Source: a virus. Taken from it: a stretch of 63,965 bases of DNA. Both the position numbers and the translations under genes were made by a program. Where the stretch lies: IMG/VR virus record IMGVR_UViG_3300033145_000191, positions 1 to 63,965 of that record; one strand, 5' to 3'. The notes under the pieces are model-generated. The model saw only the letters and a program-made list of their open reading frames with translations. It was not told where the DNA came from and made no database searches. Each line of letters starts with the position of its first letter. The first letter of the stretch is position 1. This document shows positions 11,501-62,332 of the stretch, piece by piece.

Positions 11501-11510
11501 CCGACATGTG

Positions 11511-11536
11511 TGGGGTGGATTTTGTAATCCACCCCA
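11511..11536 (+). terminator. Strong hairpin after the capsid gene
   Basis: TGGGGTGGATT and AATCCACCCCA form a perfect 11-bp stem with loop TTGT, 10 bases after the capsid stop. An outer CCGACA (11501-11506) can pair with the TGTCGG just past the hairpin. There is no T-tract, so it may be an attenuator or mRNA-stabilising element that raises capsid mRNA relative to downstream genes. Confidence 0.7.
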
Positions 11537-11563
11537 TACGGTCTTAACTTGTCGGGGATTATT

Positions 11564-13290: not shown

Positions 13291-13297
13291 ATTTACC

Positions 13298-13330
13298 TGT
13301 AGTGGGGTCACATTGTGTGGCCCCACTACA
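13298..13330 (+). terminator. Strong hairpin after the tail tube gene
   Basis: TGTAGTGGGGTCACA pairs with TGTGGCCCCACTACA (15 bp including one T-G wobble, loop TTG). It lies 7 bases after the stop and is followed by CATTTATTAA. It is a partial terminator or processing site separating the tail tube from the chaperone genes. Confidence 0.75.
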
Positions 13331-13355
13331 CATTTATTAAATGGAGGTAGTAATT

Positions 13356-29324: not shown

Positions 29325-29876
29325 ATGAAGCCTTGGAAGATATGTGCATATTACACGAAAGGCACACCATACGAAGATATGGTAGATGGATTTCGAAAAT
29401 CATGTCTTGCGAATGGGGTATTGCACCCTCACATCGAAGGATTGCCGGATAAAAATTCTTGGAGAAATAACACTGGTATGAAACCTAGTTTTATATTAAA
29501 TTGCATGGATAGATTCCACAAGTGGAATATTATTTATGTTGATATTGACGCCAAAATCAGAGCGTATCCGGTGTGGTTTGATACAGTCGTCGAGGATTTT
29601 GCTGCAAATACTCAAGCAAGAAAAGAATTATTAAGTGGCACACTTTACTTTGCAAATAATCCAAGAGTTCGTGCCATTGTGGTAAAATGGGTCGAGAAGC
29701 AAGAACGACTTATGCACGTCTTTGATCAGAAGAATCTAGAGAATGTTATCAAAGACGACGAGACCATTACAGTAGCGGAATTACCACCAGCATATGTTCA
29801 AATATTTGACTTGATGGCTCATCATGGTGAGCCAGTCATTGAACACTTCCAAGCTAGTAGGAGATTCAGAAAATGA
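29325..29876 (+). CDS. Putative nucleotide-diphospho-sugar transferase (183 aa)
   Basis: WNIIYVDIDAKIRAYPVWFD provides a D-I-D metal motif in a GT-A-like strand, and KPSFILNCMDRF and LSGTLYFANNPRVRAIVVKW resemble GT77/DUF nucleotide-sugar transferases. It is shorter than most members. It begins directly after the GT32-like gene and overlaps the next by 4 bases. Confidence 0.6.
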   Translation: MKPWKICAYYTKGTPYEDMVDGFRKSCLANGVLHPHIEGLPDKNSWRNNTGMKPSFILNCMDRFHKWNIIYVDIDAKIRAYPVWFDTVVEDFAANTQARKELLSGTLYFANNPRVRAIVVKWVEKQERLMHVFDQKNLENVIKDDETITVAELPPAYVQIFDLMAHHGEPVIEHFQASRRFRK

Positions 29877-35647: not shown

Positions 35648-36073
35648 ATGATTCTCCAAATCTCATAGATTCGATTAAAATCAAATCATTTTTAAGTATT
35701 GGCTAAATTATCCCGTCAATACTCTTTACGTGATATACAAGAAACTTTTAAGACAATTTTTAAGTCGTTTTGTGGCAAAGACTTACGACAATTCATACTG
35801 TCTTATTCTCAGTTTGCAGCATAGAATGACAGATAAAAAATAGAAAACTACACAGCGAATTAGACTCGAAATAGTCAGTAAAACGGTATCCATTAATACA
35901 CTATACGCCGAAAATATATTTATTTTCTTCTTAAAAAATCACCCCAAATCCCGTAAAGACTTATATCGTGCCGACATTCATTTCGGGTGCGGCAAGGCCG
36001 AATGATAATCGAATCGCTCGTTGATTTGATTATTTCGGCGATTTCAAATCTTTTTATGGAAAGGGGTATGCGT
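35648..36073. promoter_or_regulatory. Divergent control region between primase and ParB-like operons
   Basis: About 425 AT-rich bases without a convincing gene. On the minus strand at 35787-35758 lies CGTAAGTCTTTGCC followed 8 bases on by ACTTAAAA, a near copy of the elements at 976 and 1112. The plus-strand element at 35930-35958 matches the one before the virion operon. AATCAAATCATTT at 35679 recurs at 48169, upstream of another operon. Likely promoters in both directions with shared regulation. Confidence 0.65.
35930..35958 (+). promoter_or_regulatory. Conserved two-part upstream element, copy 2 (before the ParB-like operon)
   Basis: CTTAAAAAATCA, four bases, AAATCCCGTAAAG, then ACTTATAT. 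It is identical in its 25 defined bases and spacing to 2376-2404, and lies 115 bases before the ParB-like start. Confidence 0.65.
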
Positions 36074-48065: not shown

Positions 48066-48117
48066 AAATCTGTAATCAAATCAAAATAAAATATCTGAAA
48101 ATCTTTCCAGAATCCTC

Positions 48118-48146
48118 TTGCAATTTTCTTGCGTATATGCTATAAT
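48118..48146 (+). promoter_or_regulatory. Strong sigma70-like promoter
   Basis: TTGCAA, a 17-base spacer, then a perfect TATAAT (48141-48146), in the 156-base gap before the gene at 48222. AATCAAATCATTT at 48169-48181, just downstream, repeats a sequence of the 35.7-kb control region. It drives the sigma-like factor and nucleotide-metabolism genes. Confidence 0.8.
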
Positions 48147-48221
48147 GAATTGAGCGAAGTCTGTTCATAATCAAATCATTTAAGGCATCGGATTTTCAAA
48201 TCGAAATAGGAAAGGAATAAG

Positions 48222-49836: not shown

Positions 49837-49902
49837 AGTAGGCAGCAGCGAGCGACAAAGGTATTTGCGAATAACCCAAGTTGCCATGACCTGCTGCCTA
49901 CT
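49837..49902 (+). ncRNA. Structured intergenic RNA element C (12-bp closing stem)
   Basis: AGTAGGCAGCAG (49837-49848) pairs perfectly with CTGCTGCCTACT (49891-49902). Inside is a hairpin GGTATT-TGCG-AATAACC with one bulged A. It starts 9 bases after the deoxynucleotidase stop. No T-tract follows, but a strong AAGGAGG site does, so this is more likely a leader or processing element than a terminator. Confidence 0.55.
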
Positions 49903-49928: not shown

Positions 49929-49943
49929 ATGCGGAAGCGTTAA
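49929..49943 (+). other. Minimal reading frame MRKR behind a perfect ribosome binding site
   Basis: AAAAGGAGGTGCAGA then ATGCGGAAGCGTTAA: a five-codon frame (Met-Arg-Lys-Arg-stop), between structured elements C and D. It could be a regulatory leader peptide or a degraded gene start. Confidence 0.4.
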
Positions 49944-49964: not shown

Positions 49965-50005
49965 GTAGGATGGCGGTCATGCTTGGTGCATGACCGTCGG
50001 CCTAC
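49965..50005 (+). ncRNA. Structured intergenic RNA element D
   Basis: Outer stem GTAGG/CCTAC and inner stem GGCGGTCATGC/GCATGACCGTC (11 bp, one G-T wobble) with loop TTGGT. It ends 25 bases before the next ATG. No T-tract. Leader hairpin or mRNA-stabilising element. Confidence 0.55.
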
Positions 50006-50030
50006 CCAACATTAACATTAAGGAAAAGAC

Positions 50031-50273
50031 ATGGAATACACTAGAATAACAATAAGCAATGCAAAAGTCATCAAGACGGTAGCCGGTATAGATGCGCCTG
50101 ATGCAGAACCAACCGTAACATTAGAGATTTTTGGAATCACTAACAATGTGCTGAAGCGAGAAACTTATGAAGATATTCATAAAAAGCTTGGTGACGTAGC
50201 TTTTATAGTAGACGAAGCTATTGAGAACGCGTCAATAATCAATTTACTTCGGGGTCGCATTACCAGAAAATGA
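50031..50273 (+). CDS. Small protein of unknown function (80 aa)
   Basis: Begins MEYTRITISNAKVIKTVAGI; the leader TTAAGGAAAAGAC directly before the ATG is nearly repeated before the gene at 50388. A beta-rich N-terminus is followed by helices. It is flanked by structured RNA elements on both sides. No family recognised. Confidence 0.6.
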   Translation: MEYTRITISNAKVIKTVAGIDAPDAEPTVTLEIFGITNNVLKRETYEDIHKKLGDVAFIVDEAIENASIINLLRGRITRK

Positions 50274-50281
50274 TTAACTTT

Positions 50282-50365
50282 ATAATTGTGTAGCTACGTG
50301 GGCGGGAGAAATGCTCCCTATGGCCTACAAAATAGGCAACTAGAATCCGGTAGCTACACAATTAT
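50282..50365 (+). ncRNA. Structured intergenic RNA element A (three-way junction, 16-bp closing stem)
   Basis: ATAATTGTGTAGCTAC (50282-50297) pairs perfectly with 50350-50365. Inside are two hairpins: GGGAG/CTCCC (50304-50318) and GCCTA/TAGGC (50323-50337). This makes a clean three-way junction of 84 bases filling the gap between two genes. A tiny frame MLPMAYKIGN (50311-50343) lies inside. There is no match to purine-riboswitch junction sequences. It ends 22 bases before the next ATG. Confidence 0.65.
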
Positions 50366-50387
50366 TATTAAATATAAAGGAAAAGAC

Positions 50388-50885
50388 ATGAGTAATACAA
50401 AATGGGAAAGATATGCAGGTGTAAAGGCTGTTGAGGATTTACGCCGGTTTATTTTTCCTGGCTTCCGAGTAGAAGTGGCAGGATCATTGCGGCGAGAATG
50501 TAAGACGATTCATGATATCGATTTAGTAATCATGGGTAATAGCAGGGACATAGCTGCTTGTCTACAAGATGTTCATATTAATCAAATTGGAGATAGACGT
50601 ATCAGATTCGAGTATCTTAGCATCCCGATTGATGTGTGTTGTGTGTCGTTTGAGTGGGAATGGGACCCAATGCTCTTACATCACACAGGTTCATGTGAGT
50701 TCAACATCTTCATGAGGGCAATTGCAAAAGCTAAAGGGTATAAGTTAAATGAGTATGGCCTTGAGGTTAATAAAAATTGTGGTATTACAGCAGAAGAGCA
50801 TATTTTCAGCGCTCTTGGTGTTAAGTATATTAGACCAATACTTCGATCAGTTCAAAATAGCTTTGCATGGGAGAGAATATCATGA
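50388..50885 (+). CDS. DNA polymerase X/beta-like nucleotidyltransferase
   Basis: 165 aa. VEVAGSLRRECKTIHDIDLV contains GS-x-RR and D-I-D, the nucleotide-binding and metal-binding core of pol-beta-type transferases. It is only the palm with a short N-terminal helical part, much shorter than cellular pol X (over 300 aa), so a minimal gap-filling or transferase enzyme is likely. With the nearby DNA ligase it could seal gaps or breaks. Starts after AAAGGAAAAGAC. Confidence 0.75.
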   Translation: MSNTKWERYAGVKAVEDLRRFIFPGFRVEVAGSLRRECKTIHDIDLVIMGNSRDIAACLQDVHINQIGDRRIRFEYLSIPIDVCCVSFEWEWDPMLLHHTGSCEFNIFMRAIAKAKGYKLNEYGLEVNKNCGITAEEHIFSALGVKYIRPILRSVQNSFAWERIS

Positions 50886-51193
50886 GCAAGGATCTTTTGA
50901 ATGACATGTTTGATGTTATAGATCGCCAAGTAGCAGAACGTAAAACACGAATAGTGGAATATAATCAAGCATTACGTTCGCCAGATAGTCTATGGCGTGA
51001 GCAAGTAGATGGCAAAATCTACACGTTTGGATTCTGGCATATGCCTGGCGGGATAGTAAAATCACCCCGCCATAAGAATGGTTTTCATCCATACGATTAT
51101 ACAATTATTACTGATGATGAAATCAAAATATTAACTAAAGTAGCATACAACACACCCAAGCCACTGAGAGGAGAGGATGATGTCCAAACGTGA
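50882..51193 (+). CDS. Protein of unknown function (103 aa)
   Basis: Begins MSKDLLNDMFDVIDRQVAER at ATG 50882 in an ATGA overlap, with GGGAGAG upstream. Between the polymerase X-like and ligase genes, overlapping both. No family recognised; possibly an accessory to end joining, by position only. Confidence 0.55.
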   Translation: MSKDLLNDMFDVIDRQVAERKTRIVEYNQALRSPDSLWREQVDGKIYTFGFWHMPGGIVKSPRHKNGFHPYDYTIITDDEIKILTKVAYNTPKPLRGEDDVQT

Positions 51194-52292
51194 ATTTCTG
51201 ATGCTAGCCCATACCTATAAAAAAGGTAAACATAGATTGGGCGGGCACTATATCTCAGAGAAGTGTGATGGTCACCGTATACTGTGGGATGGTGGAATCA
51301 CTCGGGGGTTATTGAAATATAAGATTCCTTGGGCAAACAACGATAAAGATGAAAGACTCAGAGAGTTTCAAATAGCAACAGGTCTATGGTCACGTTACGG
51401 TAATGTGATACACGCACCAGACTGGTGGCTTGATTCCTTACCCAAAATCATGCTGGATGGTGAAGGCTTTACGCGGCGAGGCCCGGGCGGTAGGCAAGAA
51501 GCTGCGTCTATCATGAAACAGCATCAACCTGACTTTCGATGGAGAGGGCTTAAATTCAAAGTGTTTGATATGCCGCCATTAGAGACAGTATTTGCTGATG
51601 GGTATATCACTGATACGAATTACCAAAAGATGTTTTATAATATTCCGAAGTGGGTAGAAAAACGGATGGCTGAAATCAAATTTGAGTTTGACTACCGGGT
51701 TCAACCAACTATCAAATTCTTTACAGTCTATAAGTTGTTACAAAAGTGGCTTAAAGGTAATCAGGTAGCTATTGCTCATAAACAAACACAATTGCCATAC
51801 CCGCAGGATGAAGCATATGAAAGAGCACTGGAAATATGCACACAGATCACAGACATGAAGGGTGAGGGTTGTATAATTCGTAATCCTGATATGCCTTATA
51901 CTTGTGAACGTGTTCATCATATGCTGAAACTCAAGCCATACGATGATGCTGAAGGTGTTGTAGTTGGTTACACTACCGGGCGTATGACTGATAAAGGCAG
52001 TCGCCTAATGGGTATGATGGGTGCCCTGATTCTTCGACTCAAAGGCGGCATAAGATTAGAAATTAGTGGATTCACAGATCAAGAACGGATATTAACAGGT
52101 CAAGCAAATTGGGACAATACCACATTAACAGCAAAAGAATGGGCAGTATGCCACCCCGGTTACGAAGTTCCTAACTCGATAGAGGCATTACATTTCCCGC
52201 GCGGGACGTCTGTAACGTTCCGGTATCGTGGTTTATCAGACACCGATATCCCACAAGAGGCGCGTTACTGGAGAAAAAGGGAGAATCTATGA
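51180..52292 (+). CDS. ATP-dependent DNA ligase
   Basis: 370 aa from ATG 51180, 6 bases after AGGAG. Motif I is SEKCDGHRILW with the nucleotidyl-accepting Lys28. Motif III/IIIa-like is IMLDGEGFTRR, motif IV GEGCIIRN, and motif V LKLKPYDDAEGVVVGY. An OB-fold domain follows (MGALILRLKGGIRLEIS). It seals nicks for Okazaki fragments or repair, using ATP. No zinc or BRCT extension, as in small phage ligases. Confidence 0.88.
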   Translation: MSKREFLMLAHTYKKGKHRLGGHYISEKCDGHRILWDGGITRGLLKYKIPWANNDKDERLREFQIATGLWSRYGNVIHAPDWWLDSLPKIMLDGEGFTRRGPGGRQEAASIMKQHQPDFRWRGLKFKVFDMPPLETVFADGYITDTNYQKMFYNIPKWVEKRMAEIKFEFDYRVQPTIKFFTVYKLLQKWLKGNQVAIAHKQTQLPYPQDEAYERALEICTQITDMKGEGCIIRNPDMPYTCERVHHMLKLKPYDDAEGVVVGYTTGRMTDKGSRLMGMMGALILRLKGGIRLEISGFTDQERILTGQANWDNTTLTAKEWAVCHPGYEVPNSIEALHFPRGTSVTFRYRGLSDTDIPQEARYWRKRENL

Positions 52293-52729
52293 AAGGAACC
52301 CTACTAGATTTATTTGGCTGGTTAGGGAATCTATTCGTAAAGGAACTGAATATGGAAGAAGTTCTTATGCAAAAGATACCTATGTGTGACTTTTGCAAAA
52401 CAACACTGGCGAAATATGATGCGCCAACAGCTCATAATGGTAGCTTTGCATACATGTGTGAAAATTGCGCGCATATCCATAGCACAAAAACCCGGCTCGA
52501 ATTGGGCAAGTCACTTAAACAACGCACATCTGCAGAGCCTAACTTGGAGGGCCCTATTTATCAAGCGATTGAAAAATCATCAATAGAAGAACGGCTTCTT
52601 GGTGACCGTTTTGTTGCGTGTCCACAATGTGGAGAAGAAAGATTTGTAGAACCAGACGCAGACTACGTTTATACTTGTGAAGGGTGTGGCGTAAGAGTGC
52701 GTTGCACTGATCCCATGTTTACAGTATAG
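52289..52729 (+). CDS. Zinc-finger protein of unknown function (146 aa)
   Basis: Two zinc-ribbon-like pairs: MCDFCKTTL with MCENCAH (about 32-62), and ACPQCGEER with TCEGCGV (about 110-137). A hydrophobic, possibly amphipathic N-terminal 20 residues precede them. AAGGGAG lies before the ATG, which overlaps the ligase stop. It likely binds nucleic acid or a polymerase subunit. Confidence 0.6.
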   Translation: MKGTLLDLFGWLGNLFVKELNMEEVLMQKIPMCDFCKTTLAKYDAPTAHNGSFAYMCENCAHIHSTKTRLELGKSLKQRTSAEPNLEGPIYQAIEKSSIEERLLGDRFVACPQCGEERFVEPDADYVYTCEGCGVRVRCTDPMFTV

Positions 52730-52807
52730 TAATCCTGTTATTGGGTGAACAGTTTAATAACTGCTCGGGCCGTGTTAGTATTGGGTGGGACTCACGGAGC
52801 AGGATTA
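52730..52807 (+). ncRNA. Structured intergenic RNA element B (three-way junction)
   Basis: TAATCCTG (52730-52737) pairs with CAGGATTA (52800-52807). Inside are CAGTT-TAAT-AACTG (52750-52763, extended by GA/TC) and CCGTG/CACGG (52770-52797). Its topology is the same as element A at 50282, with different sequence. It starts directly after the zinc-finger gene's stop and ends 31 bases before the next ATG. Confidence 0.6.
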
Positions 52808-52838: not shown

Positions 52839-53015
52839 ATGTTTACAATAATTAGTAGCTGTGGGGGATACAAAAGAAGTGGTTTTCTTACGAAGGCCGA
52901 TGCCGAAACATGGAAGCAGACTAACATTCGCGCCTATGCAGCCCAAAAAAGAAAAGCAGAACAGATGCTAGAATCTCTTAATAATAGTATTATTAAAAAG
53001 GAGGAAAACGTATGA
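52839..53015 (+). CDS. Small basic protein (58 aa)
   Basis: Begins MFTIISSCGGYKRSGFLTKA and continues as a Lys/Gln/Ala-rich helix (RAYAAQKRKAEQMLESLNNS). It ends in an ATGA overlap with the nuclease gene, whose AAAGGAGG site lies within it. This coupling supports a real gene. Confidence 0.55.
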   Translation: MFTIISSCGGYKRSGFLTKADAETWKQTNIRAYAAQKRKAEQMLESLNNSIIKKEENV

Positions 53016-54028
53016 GGAAGCCGACGTATTTGTCACCTACATCCATTATGCAATGGCAAAAAGATAGAGATGAATTTATAAAAAGCCGTCTCGGAGATGT
53101 GAGGCCACCACGATTACCACAAACACAACCAATGTCTATAGGTTCAGCGTTCGATGCTTATGTTAAGAACTATTTAGTTACAAAACTAAGAGGTAAAACG
53201 CCTCAGGAATTTGAACTTAAGAACATTATTACGGCACAAGTTGAGCCTCATAATCGTGCATGGGCTATTGTTCATGGAAAGCATGCGTTCGAATCATACA
53301 AGTATTCAGGTGCGCTTGCCGACCTGATGCTTGAACTTGACCAGGCTGACGGTGAAGTGCAATTTGAATTCACAGTTGAAAATCGTGTTGTGCATGAAAG
53401 TTGCGTCGGGGGTGTGCCCCTACTTGGCAAACCTGATACATTCTTTAAGACTCTCAAAGGTGCTCATGCTATTCTTGATTACAAGGTGAATGGCTATTGT
53501 TCTGCATCAAACACCAGTCCTGCAAAAGGCTACATGAAGATACGGGATGGATGGACACAAGATGTAGCACCACCATCACGCGGTGTTGGCAATATGCATA
53601 AAGATTGCCAACCAATGATGCATGACGGTTTGACTATCAACATCGGACACAACTTTGAAGACGTTAATCGTGATTTCGCAATTCAGTTGTGTATTTATGC
53701 TTGGGTCTTGGGCGAGCCTGTTGGTTCAGACTTTGTGATAGGAATCGAGCAGCTTGTGTGTAAGGGTAATCCAAAATCAGGATTTCCACTTATTCGTGTT
53801 GCATCACATAGGGGTATGGTTTCCAAGCAATTCCAATTCGATCTGTATAAACAGATTCATGAAATTTGGTATGCAATTCAAAATGACCACATCTTTAGTG
53901 ATGTTAGTAAACAAGAGTCACAGGATCAAGTTGGTTTTCTATTGGATTCTAACAATGCATTCAAACCTGACAGTGACGACCCGAAAGAAAAATGGTTCAT
54001 TGATACTTTTAGACAACATCAATGGTAG
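53012..54028 (+). CDS. RecB/Cas4-like PD-(D/E)XK exonuclease
   Basis: 338 aa with an AAAGGAGG site. LSPTSIMQWQKDRDEFIKSR opens like RecB-family nucleases, and MSIGSAFDAYVKNYL carries the GxxxH/D-like helix. PLLGKPDTFFKTLKGAHAIL then DYKVNGY is the D...D-x-K core. A C-terminal region follows (DFAIQLCIYAWVLGEPVG, the usual Q-x3-Y helix). Likely a DNA end-processing or recombination exonuclease. Confidence 0.75.
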   Translation: MRKPTYLSPTSIMQWQKDRDEFIKSRLGDVRPPRLPQTQPMSIGSAFDAYVKNYLVTKLRGKTPQEFELKNIITAQVEPHNRAWAIVHGKHAFESYKYSGALADLMLELDQADGEVQFEFTVENRVVHESCVGGVPLLGKPDTFFKTLKGAHAILDYKVNGYCSASNTSPAKGYMKIRDGWTQDVAPPSRGVGNMHKDCQPMMHDGLTINIGHNFEDVNRDFAIQLCIYAWVLGEPVGSDFVIGIEQLVCKGNPKSGFPLIRVASHRGMVSKQFQFDLYKQIHEIWYAIQNDHIFSDVSKQESQDQVGFLLDSNNAFKPDSDDPKEKWFIDTFRQHQW

Positions 54029-61227: not shown

Positions 61228-61438
61228 TTGTGGGCGTCTTGTGCCTCAGTATATTCTGAGGGTAAATGGTATACATTTACCACAATCTAATTCAAAAGGG
61301 CCCGGTTTAAGTGTGAGGTGTGTTGCGTGTTGCGTGTTGCGTGTTGCGTGTTGCGTGTTGCGTGTTGCGTGTTGCGTGTTGCGTGTTGCGTGTTGCGTGT
61401 TGCGTGTTGCGTGTTGCGTGAGCAACGTTTACGAATAG
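61217..61438 (+). CDS. Reading frame entering the heptamer array (73 aa)
   Basis: ATG 61217 behind AGGAG. The first 30 residues (MNRNCGRLVPQYILRVNGIH and following) look ordinary. The frame then reads through the GTTGCGT array as a Cys/Val/Leu/Arg/Ala heptapeptide repeat (CCVLRVA units). It may be a real short gene whose 3' end was replaced or extended by repeat expansion. Confidence 0.4.
   Translation: MNRNCGRLVPQYILRVNGIHLPQSNSKGPGLSVRCVACCVLRVACCVLRVACCVLRVACCVLRVACCVSNVYE
61319..61420 (+). repeat. Heptamer array 1 (GTGTTGC)n, about 14 units
   Basis: About 102 bases of near-perfect 7-base tandem repeat. Period 7 gives open frames in all phases (a 7-residue repeat per 21 bases). It ends in GCGTGAGCAACG. 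Same unit as array 2. Confidence 0.95.
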
Positions 61439-61785
61439 TAAATATTGGAGTAATATACTAGTATTTCAAGTAAAAGCAAAGACTCTAAAAGGCGATTGGT
61501 TGGATGCAACCAAGGATGTTGATTTTATGCGTTGTGATGTTTAAAATCAATGGAATTTCAATAGTCCGAGGCATGATTCTAAAAAATGGACAAAAAAAGT
61601 TGTGTGTTTTAATAGTATCGCCTAACTAGTTTACTAACTAGCCGGGGGCCATGTTTAGGCTCCATATTTTCTTATTATCTTTTTTCATTTGATGATGTTT
61701 AAAGTGAGATTAAGATAGTTAGTGATGTAGTCAGTTGCCGAGAAATTGAAATCATGAATGGTGATTTGATGCAACTAATCAATAC

Positions 61786-61800
61786 CTGCCATAATGGCAG
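61786..61800. promoter_or_regulatory. CTGCCATWWTGGCAG palindrome, copy 1
   Basis: CTGCCATAATGGCAG, a palindrome apart from the central base. Recurs as CTGCCATTTTGGCAG at 62190-62204, CTGCCATTATGGCAG at 62221-62235, and with two changes at 62154-62168. Likely a binding site for one dimeric protein. Confidence 0.7.
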
Positions 61801-61898
61801 TCGGCTTATGTCTTGACTGCAGTCATTAATTAGTAGCCATATAAATTTAATAAGACCATTGATTGTAATAATCAGCATTTTGATGGTATACCATCGAA

Positions 61899-61952
61899 AT
61901 TAAATAAGTCTACTGGATTAAACAAGTCTATTGGATTAAACAAGTCTACTGG
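61899..61952 (+). repeat. Three tandem 18-bp repeats
   Basis: ATTAAATAAGTCTACTGG, ATTAAACAAGTCTATTGG and ATTAAACAAGTCTACTGG, head to tail, ending directly at heptamer array 2. AT-rich iteron-like units of one and a half to two helical turns. Confidence 0.9.
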
Positions 61953-62145
61953 GTGTTGTGTGTTGCGTGTTGCGTGTTGCGTGTTGCGTGTTGCGTGTTG
62001 CGTGTTGCGTGTTGCGTGTTGCGTGTTGCGTGTTGCGTGTTGCGTGTTGCGTGTTGCGTGTTGCGTGTTGCGTTTGCGTGTTGCGTGTTGCGTGTTGCGT
62101 GTTGCGTGTTGCGTGTTGCGTGTTGCGTGTTGCGTGTTGCGTGTT
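61953..62145 (+). repeat. Heptamer array 2 (GTGTTGC)n, about 27 units
   Basis: About 190 bases of the same 7-mer as array 1, with one unit lacking a base near 62072 that resets the phase. Frames are open on both strands only because of the repeat; I do not call them genes. Confidence 0.95.
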
Positions 62146-62153
62146 TACAAGGA

Positions 62154-62235
62154 TTGTCATTTTGGCAGGATTATGGTCTCTCAGTCAACCTGCCATTTTG
62201 GCAGTCTACTTATACCTCAACTGCCATTATGGCAG
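62154..62235. promoter_or_regulatory. Cluster of three CTGCCAT-type palindromes
   Basis: Sites at 62154-62168 (13 of 15 matching), 62190-62204 and 62221-62235. Start-to-start spacings are 36 and 31 bases, close to three turns of DNA, so bound proteins could sit on one face. The cluster lies between array 2 and the 14-mer array. Confidence 0.7.
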
Positions 62236-62332
62236 CCTCTAAAAGTAGTATGATTTTATTAATCTAATACAACCCTTAAGGAGTTTTGTGGGTGACCTCG
62301 CCTTATTGCAAATCGCCACTTTGAGGTTTAAT

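Follow-up and report, generated by a model that had tools for sequence, protein, structure and literature searches.

Two conserved structured RNAs with strong compensatory change and no match in Rfam are found directly upstream of replication genes in a group of related uncultivated phages. The window that was analysed is a tailed-phage (virus) record of 63,965 bases, in which a preliminary description had proposed two intergenic RNAs, here called A and B, built on one three-way-junction plan. Element A proved to be a real structured RNA, folded far beyond chance, and B is indistinguishable from shuffled sequence on the coding strand. For the phage group, the two RNA families R1 and R2, which covary, bear out the general idea of branched RNAs that fill operon gaps. 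This result outweighs A, which taken alone is an ordinary stable intercistronic RNA of a phage operon.

The window encodes a tailed-phage gene set (terminase, DNA polymerase, helicase-like, sigma-like, 5'-nucleotidase, DNA polymerase X, ATP-dependent DNA ligase and exonuclease-like proteins), and between 36 and 61 kb all called genes are on the + strand. A DNA search of an annotated phage collection found no near relative of the window, and a scan of genome contigs for the host returned MAG contigs from several phyla and no firm host. Searching IMG/VR with the DNA polymerase of the window gave 15 related loci, 40-63% identical, and a ligase profile gave 80 loci, which partly share contigs with the DNA polymerase loci. 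Gene order is mostly preserved among the related loci, but the genes flanking A and B are not preserved, and a scan with polX, the gene downstream of A, detected one distant relative only (31%).

Covarying RNA families upstream of replication genes

R1 emerged when 506 gaps of the group were folded and those in which a long closing helix surrounds several hairpins were listed. It is a branched RNA of approximately 136 nt, located in the gap before the DNA polymerase gene or before a small gene that precedes it, and its unpaired stretches are strongly conserved. A MAFFT alignment alone shows compensatory change in 24 of the 36 predicted pairs. Among 21 matches, 19 of them distinct, 33 of the 36 pairs have changed on both sides and 92% of cells pair in an alignment that is fitted to the model; when the partner is slid by one column, pairing falls to approximately 39%. 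The matches comprise L055 (1732-1868) and 20 more (L080, L056, L104, L097, L102, L050, L047, L052, L068, L089, L088, L082, L087, L035, L091, L106, L098, L099, L066 and L074).

R2 is a branched RNA of approximately 124 nt that is usually present in the gap before the small gene that precedes the exonuclease-like gene, and in other phages is upstream of a P-loop gene or other genes. In its 12 distinct members 17 of 23 pairs have changed on both sides, and pairing collapses likewise on sliding. Members are encoded at L075 12210-12332 and L040 9960-10083, in L046, L047, L048, L051, L052, L056, L089, L091 and L097, and at L163 1153-1254, a divergent 102-nt copy that was detected after the model had been built. 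A further candidate at L007 13509 was discarded because the called gene that contains it seems to encode a zinc-finger protein. Six contigs encode both R1 and R2, and neither family matches Rfam 15 or the annotated phage collection. Most copies of either RNA start at most approximately 20 nt from a stop codon, and the distance from their end to the following start codon is usually 6-28 nt; A and B are placed in their gaps in the same way. With these two families it becomes possible to test whether phage replication genes are controlled at the RNA level outside the T4 group, and binding, cleavage and ligand assays can be applied to them directly.

Intergenic structure is common in the phage group, with 12% of the 506 folded gaps having z below -3, while the sequences are not shared. 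Very stable simple hairpins without a T run follow structural genes of the window at 11501-11563 and 13291-13355, and are approximately as strongly folded and as significant as A. Together with A and the neighboring elements C and D, they point to a genome in which intercistronic RNA structure is widely used.

Other features were seen in these sequences. Long arrays of short tandem repeats with GTGTTGC-like units occupy 61299-62267, near the end of the window record. The sequence AATCAAATCA occurs four times in the window, where 0.7 occurrences are expected, at 35679, 36022 (minus strand), 48074 and 48169; three of these sites are inside the gaps 35648-36001 and 48066-48221 and one is at most 30 bases from a gap edge. 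In some relatives (L005, L006, L008 and L024) it is present as inverted pairs, and it is likely to be an operator or promoter element. Divergent gene boundaries contain, or lie near, very long inverted repeats at L008 4452-4782, L011 3546-3893 and L002 2984-3091, which are possibly origins or operators. The gap pair L004 6405-6901 and L015 6034-6707 contains tmRNA-like sequence, a resemblance noted by eye at its ends. Another group of gaps, in L009, L010 and L012, was rejected as RNA and reads as a missed coding gene.

Element A and its neighbors

Element A (50282..50365, + strand) has the long perfect closing stem and two inner hairpins that had been described for it. The arms of the stem (50282-50297 and 50350-50365) form 16 bp, are 100% complementary and have 52 nt between them. 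The first hairpin, GGGAG/CUCCC (50304-50318), forms with a pairing probability of about 1.0, and the second, GCCUA/UAGGC (50323-50337), with a probability of 0.62. GCCUA is alternatively paired with an upstream UGGGC (0.38), which excludes pairing with UAGGC, and both states result in a three-way junction. The minimum free energy of A is -38.0 kcal/mol, whereas its shuffles average -18.2 (z -6.7), and none of 200 was as stable. When the whole 114-nt gap was shuffled, none of 1000 sequences folded equally well and none of 1000 contained a 16-bp Watson-Crick stem.

The gap is nearly filled by A, as the preliminary description also stated: there are 8 nt between a stop codon and its start, and 22 nt between its end and the ATG at 50388 of polX (50388..50885, + strand), which encodes a DNA polymerase beta palm/thumb protein (PF14791, 8e-18). 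We regard A as a genuine cis RNA candidate. An A-rich leader, ribosome-binding site and ATG (AAAGGAAAAGACATG, 50376..50390, + strand) follow, the ribosome-binding site AAAGGAAAAGA starting approximately 10 nt after A. The unpaired probability of this site is 0.70 with A and 0.57 without A, and no complement to it was found within A.

The gap preceding that of A, before the ORF at 50031, contains two further elements that cluster with A. Element C (49837..49902, + strand) is a 12-bp perfect stem with stacked upper stems and internal loops (z -5.1), and element D (49965..50005, + strand), just upstream of the ORF, is a long near-perfect hairpin (z -5.4). Between them, an AAGGAGG ribosome-binding site precedes a four-codon open frame, MRKR* (49929..49943, + strand), which is possibly a leader peptide. 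A copy of the polX A-rich leader, with one mismatch, follows D at 50019-50033. Neither A, B, C nor D has a + strand intrinsic terminator consisting of a stem-loop and T run. ARAGORN identified tRNAs in the window only at 29497 and 54207, and A and B are neither tRNA nor tmRNA. At the gathering score, Rfam 15 found only a single tRNA in the window and no family at A or B; up to an E value of 10 it added two chance snoRNA matches (E 5-9), neither of them at A or B.

We tentatively favor, at somewhat less than even confidence, a role for A as a lineage-specific cis-acting processing or stability element in the polycistronic RNA of a DNA-metabolism operon. Transcription would pass through the gap, and the long double-stranded stem would be cut by a host RNase III-type double-strand endonuclease, or would block exonucleases. 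The polX-ligase segment would thereby become an mRNA of its own, with an A-rich leader left open and with altered expression, and C and D probably do the same job in the preceding gap. The far-beyond-chance fold of A, the strength of C and D, the stable hairpins and folded gaps elsewhere, the + strand orientation of the genes, the absence of a terminator-like site, the ribosome-binding site being more open with A than without it, and the precedent of T7 argue for processing, and A, like an RNase III signal, places a 16-bp perfect stem between co-directional genes, which are presumably cotranscribed. The branched interior of A counts against processing, since plain RNase III signals need none, as does the alternative pairing of GCCUA, which could hint at regulation.

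That alternative pairing, a three-way junction with two mutually exclusive inner states, is what might be expected of a known type of metabolite-sensing riboswitch or self-cleaving ribozyme, and metabolite sensing had been suggested for A. We consider such a role very improbable. No Rfam 15 family matches A, even at E values up to 10, and there is no terminator. A metabolite sensor is unlikely because the 16-bp stem, too stable to switch, is not a plausible switch and because the ribosome-binding site is mostly unpaired and has no pairing partner. A processing or stability role would fit A better than metabolite sensing.

A different regulatory role is suggested by the phage group itself, in which gap-filling branched leaders occur and R1, with 33 of 36 pairs covarying and strongly conserved unpaired residues, is upstream of DNA polymerase or of a small gene before it. 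By analogy with gp43 of T4, a phage DNA-metabolism protein might bind A as a translational operator and repress or tune polX and the genes behind it. This is unlikely for A, which does not overlap the ribosome-binding site and does not match R1. Although A is the top match to the R1 covariance model in 36-61 kb, the match is insignificant (9.5 bits, E 0.74); in a sequence-only comparison the two share no residues beyond chance, and 94 of 100 randomized structures score equally well.

The 16-bp inverted repeat might alternatively act as DNA, either as a protein-binding or cruciform site or as the remnant of a small mobile insertion. The minus strand of A folds nearly as well as the + strand, and the stem arms contain a self-complementary octamer, GTAGCTAC, with one other site in the window. 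Against this, A has no second copy in approximately 100 related loci or among the repeats listed for the replication region of the window, no target-site duplication is visible, and the octamer is not scattered across other gaps, all of which leaves a DNA-level role quite doubtful. The idea of a repeated operator based on GTAGCTAC and TATTGGGTG was dropped; these sequences are not dispersed.

In approximately 100 related loci, no sequence homologs of A, B, C or D were found beyond a 14-nt chance match; A and B produced just short low-complexity or E 0.1 matches in the phage collection, and an exact-pattern search for A in IMG/VR produced no match. The refutation test of the preliminary description, which asked whether relatives lack the stems, gave a largely negative result. 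Where polX is kept (L003, L009 and L010), it begins before the preceding gene has ended, hence there is no gap and no stem, and where the zinc-ribbon gene upstream of B is kept (L018 and L025), only approximately 10 nt follow it, again leaving no such gap and no stem. Within the available sample, A and B thus appear to be lineage-specific, and because A has no homologs, compensatory change cannot demonstrate that its structure is under selection.

Element B and the R2 position

Element B (52730..52807, + strand) has an ambiguous interior and does not fold above chance on the + strand. The closing stem attributed to it is present, with 8 Watson-Crick pairs, or 10 if one U-G and one U-A are counted. 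The proposed two-hairpin interior is not unique: it is one of several within 0.5-1 kcal/mol, and the probability of CCGUG/CACGG is 0.27. On the coding strand the element has z -1.6, with 11 of 200 shuffles as stable, and its gap has z -0.3, with 345 of 1000 as stable. An 8-bp Watson-Crick stem occurs in 10 of 1000 shuffles of the gap, and the window has approximately 25 such gaps. The reverse strand scores better against its own shuffles (0 of 200 for the element, 7 of 1000 for the gap) because the + strand is G/U-rich and its shuffles fold well too. B is a weak candidate and is not established as an element.

Pairing A and B as a single type of element finds no support either. In approximately 5% of shuffled gaps, two or more hairpins are enclosed by a helix of at least 8 pairs, and the plan that they share is consequently weak evidence of kinship; it is not evidence for a common origin or function.

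The gene position of B is that of R2, a gap followed by one small gene, the 58-aa ORF at 52839..53015 (+ strand), and then by the exonuclease-like gene at 53012..54028 (+ strand), which is named so here with no Pfam match and is conserved throughout the group. The R2 model aligns to B over its full length and in register, matching the outer stem, GGGUG and the first hairpin, and in a sequence-only R2 profile test B outscores 95-99% of random sequences that preserve the structure. B could then be a strongly diverged member of R2 at the equivalent gene position, which we nevertheless regard as improbable. Its match to the R2 model is insignificant (7.7 bits, E 2.7 in 25 kb), as is that to a broader model, R3, over the whole window (8.1 bits, E 5.4), and the invariant UUUCGGU loop and GUA-CC end of R2 are missing. 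B is also moderately high against the unrelated R1 profile, so composition explains part of its score, and the copies of R2 upstream of different genes weaken the positional argument. Assignment of B to R2 was therefore rejected on its insignificant model scores and the absence of the most conserved R2 residues.

A wider scenario would make R1 and R2 the conserved members of a class of branched gap-filling RNAs that controls DNA-replication genes, with A, and possibly B, as fast-evolving members, perhaps binding phage replication proteins or cleaving mRNA. We consider this scenario rather unlikely.

Comparison with known systems

R1 and R2 resemble A in being branched and gap-filling; in contrast to A, which matches neither family, they covary and have conserved residues, and B matches them only insignificantly. 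The manA and wcaG motifs of cyanophages are phage-borne structured leaders known from comparative genomics (PMC2864571). They differ from the RNAs described here in their structures and target genes, and neither was found in Rfam 15 scans of the window and of the R1 and R2 loci.

Phage T7 produces an early polycistronic RNA of roughly 7,000 nt, in the maturation of which RNase III is involved (PMC4858673). The RNase III signals of T7 early mRNA are, like A, intercistronic long double-stranded stems in a polycistronic phage transcript and have no terminator tail. Unlike them, A is branched inside, and its perfect stem is longer; cleavage of A is something that we infer.

The translational operator of gene 43 in T4 and RB69 is a structured RNA that precedes a phage DNA-metabolism gene by a few tens of bases (PMC3014915), and so is A. 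The T4 operator is a small hairpin with a site that runs into the ribosome-binding site, whereas A is large and leaves 22 nt between itself and the start codon. An operator resembling that of T4 gene 43 is the main rival explanation for A, and it would fit R1 better than A.
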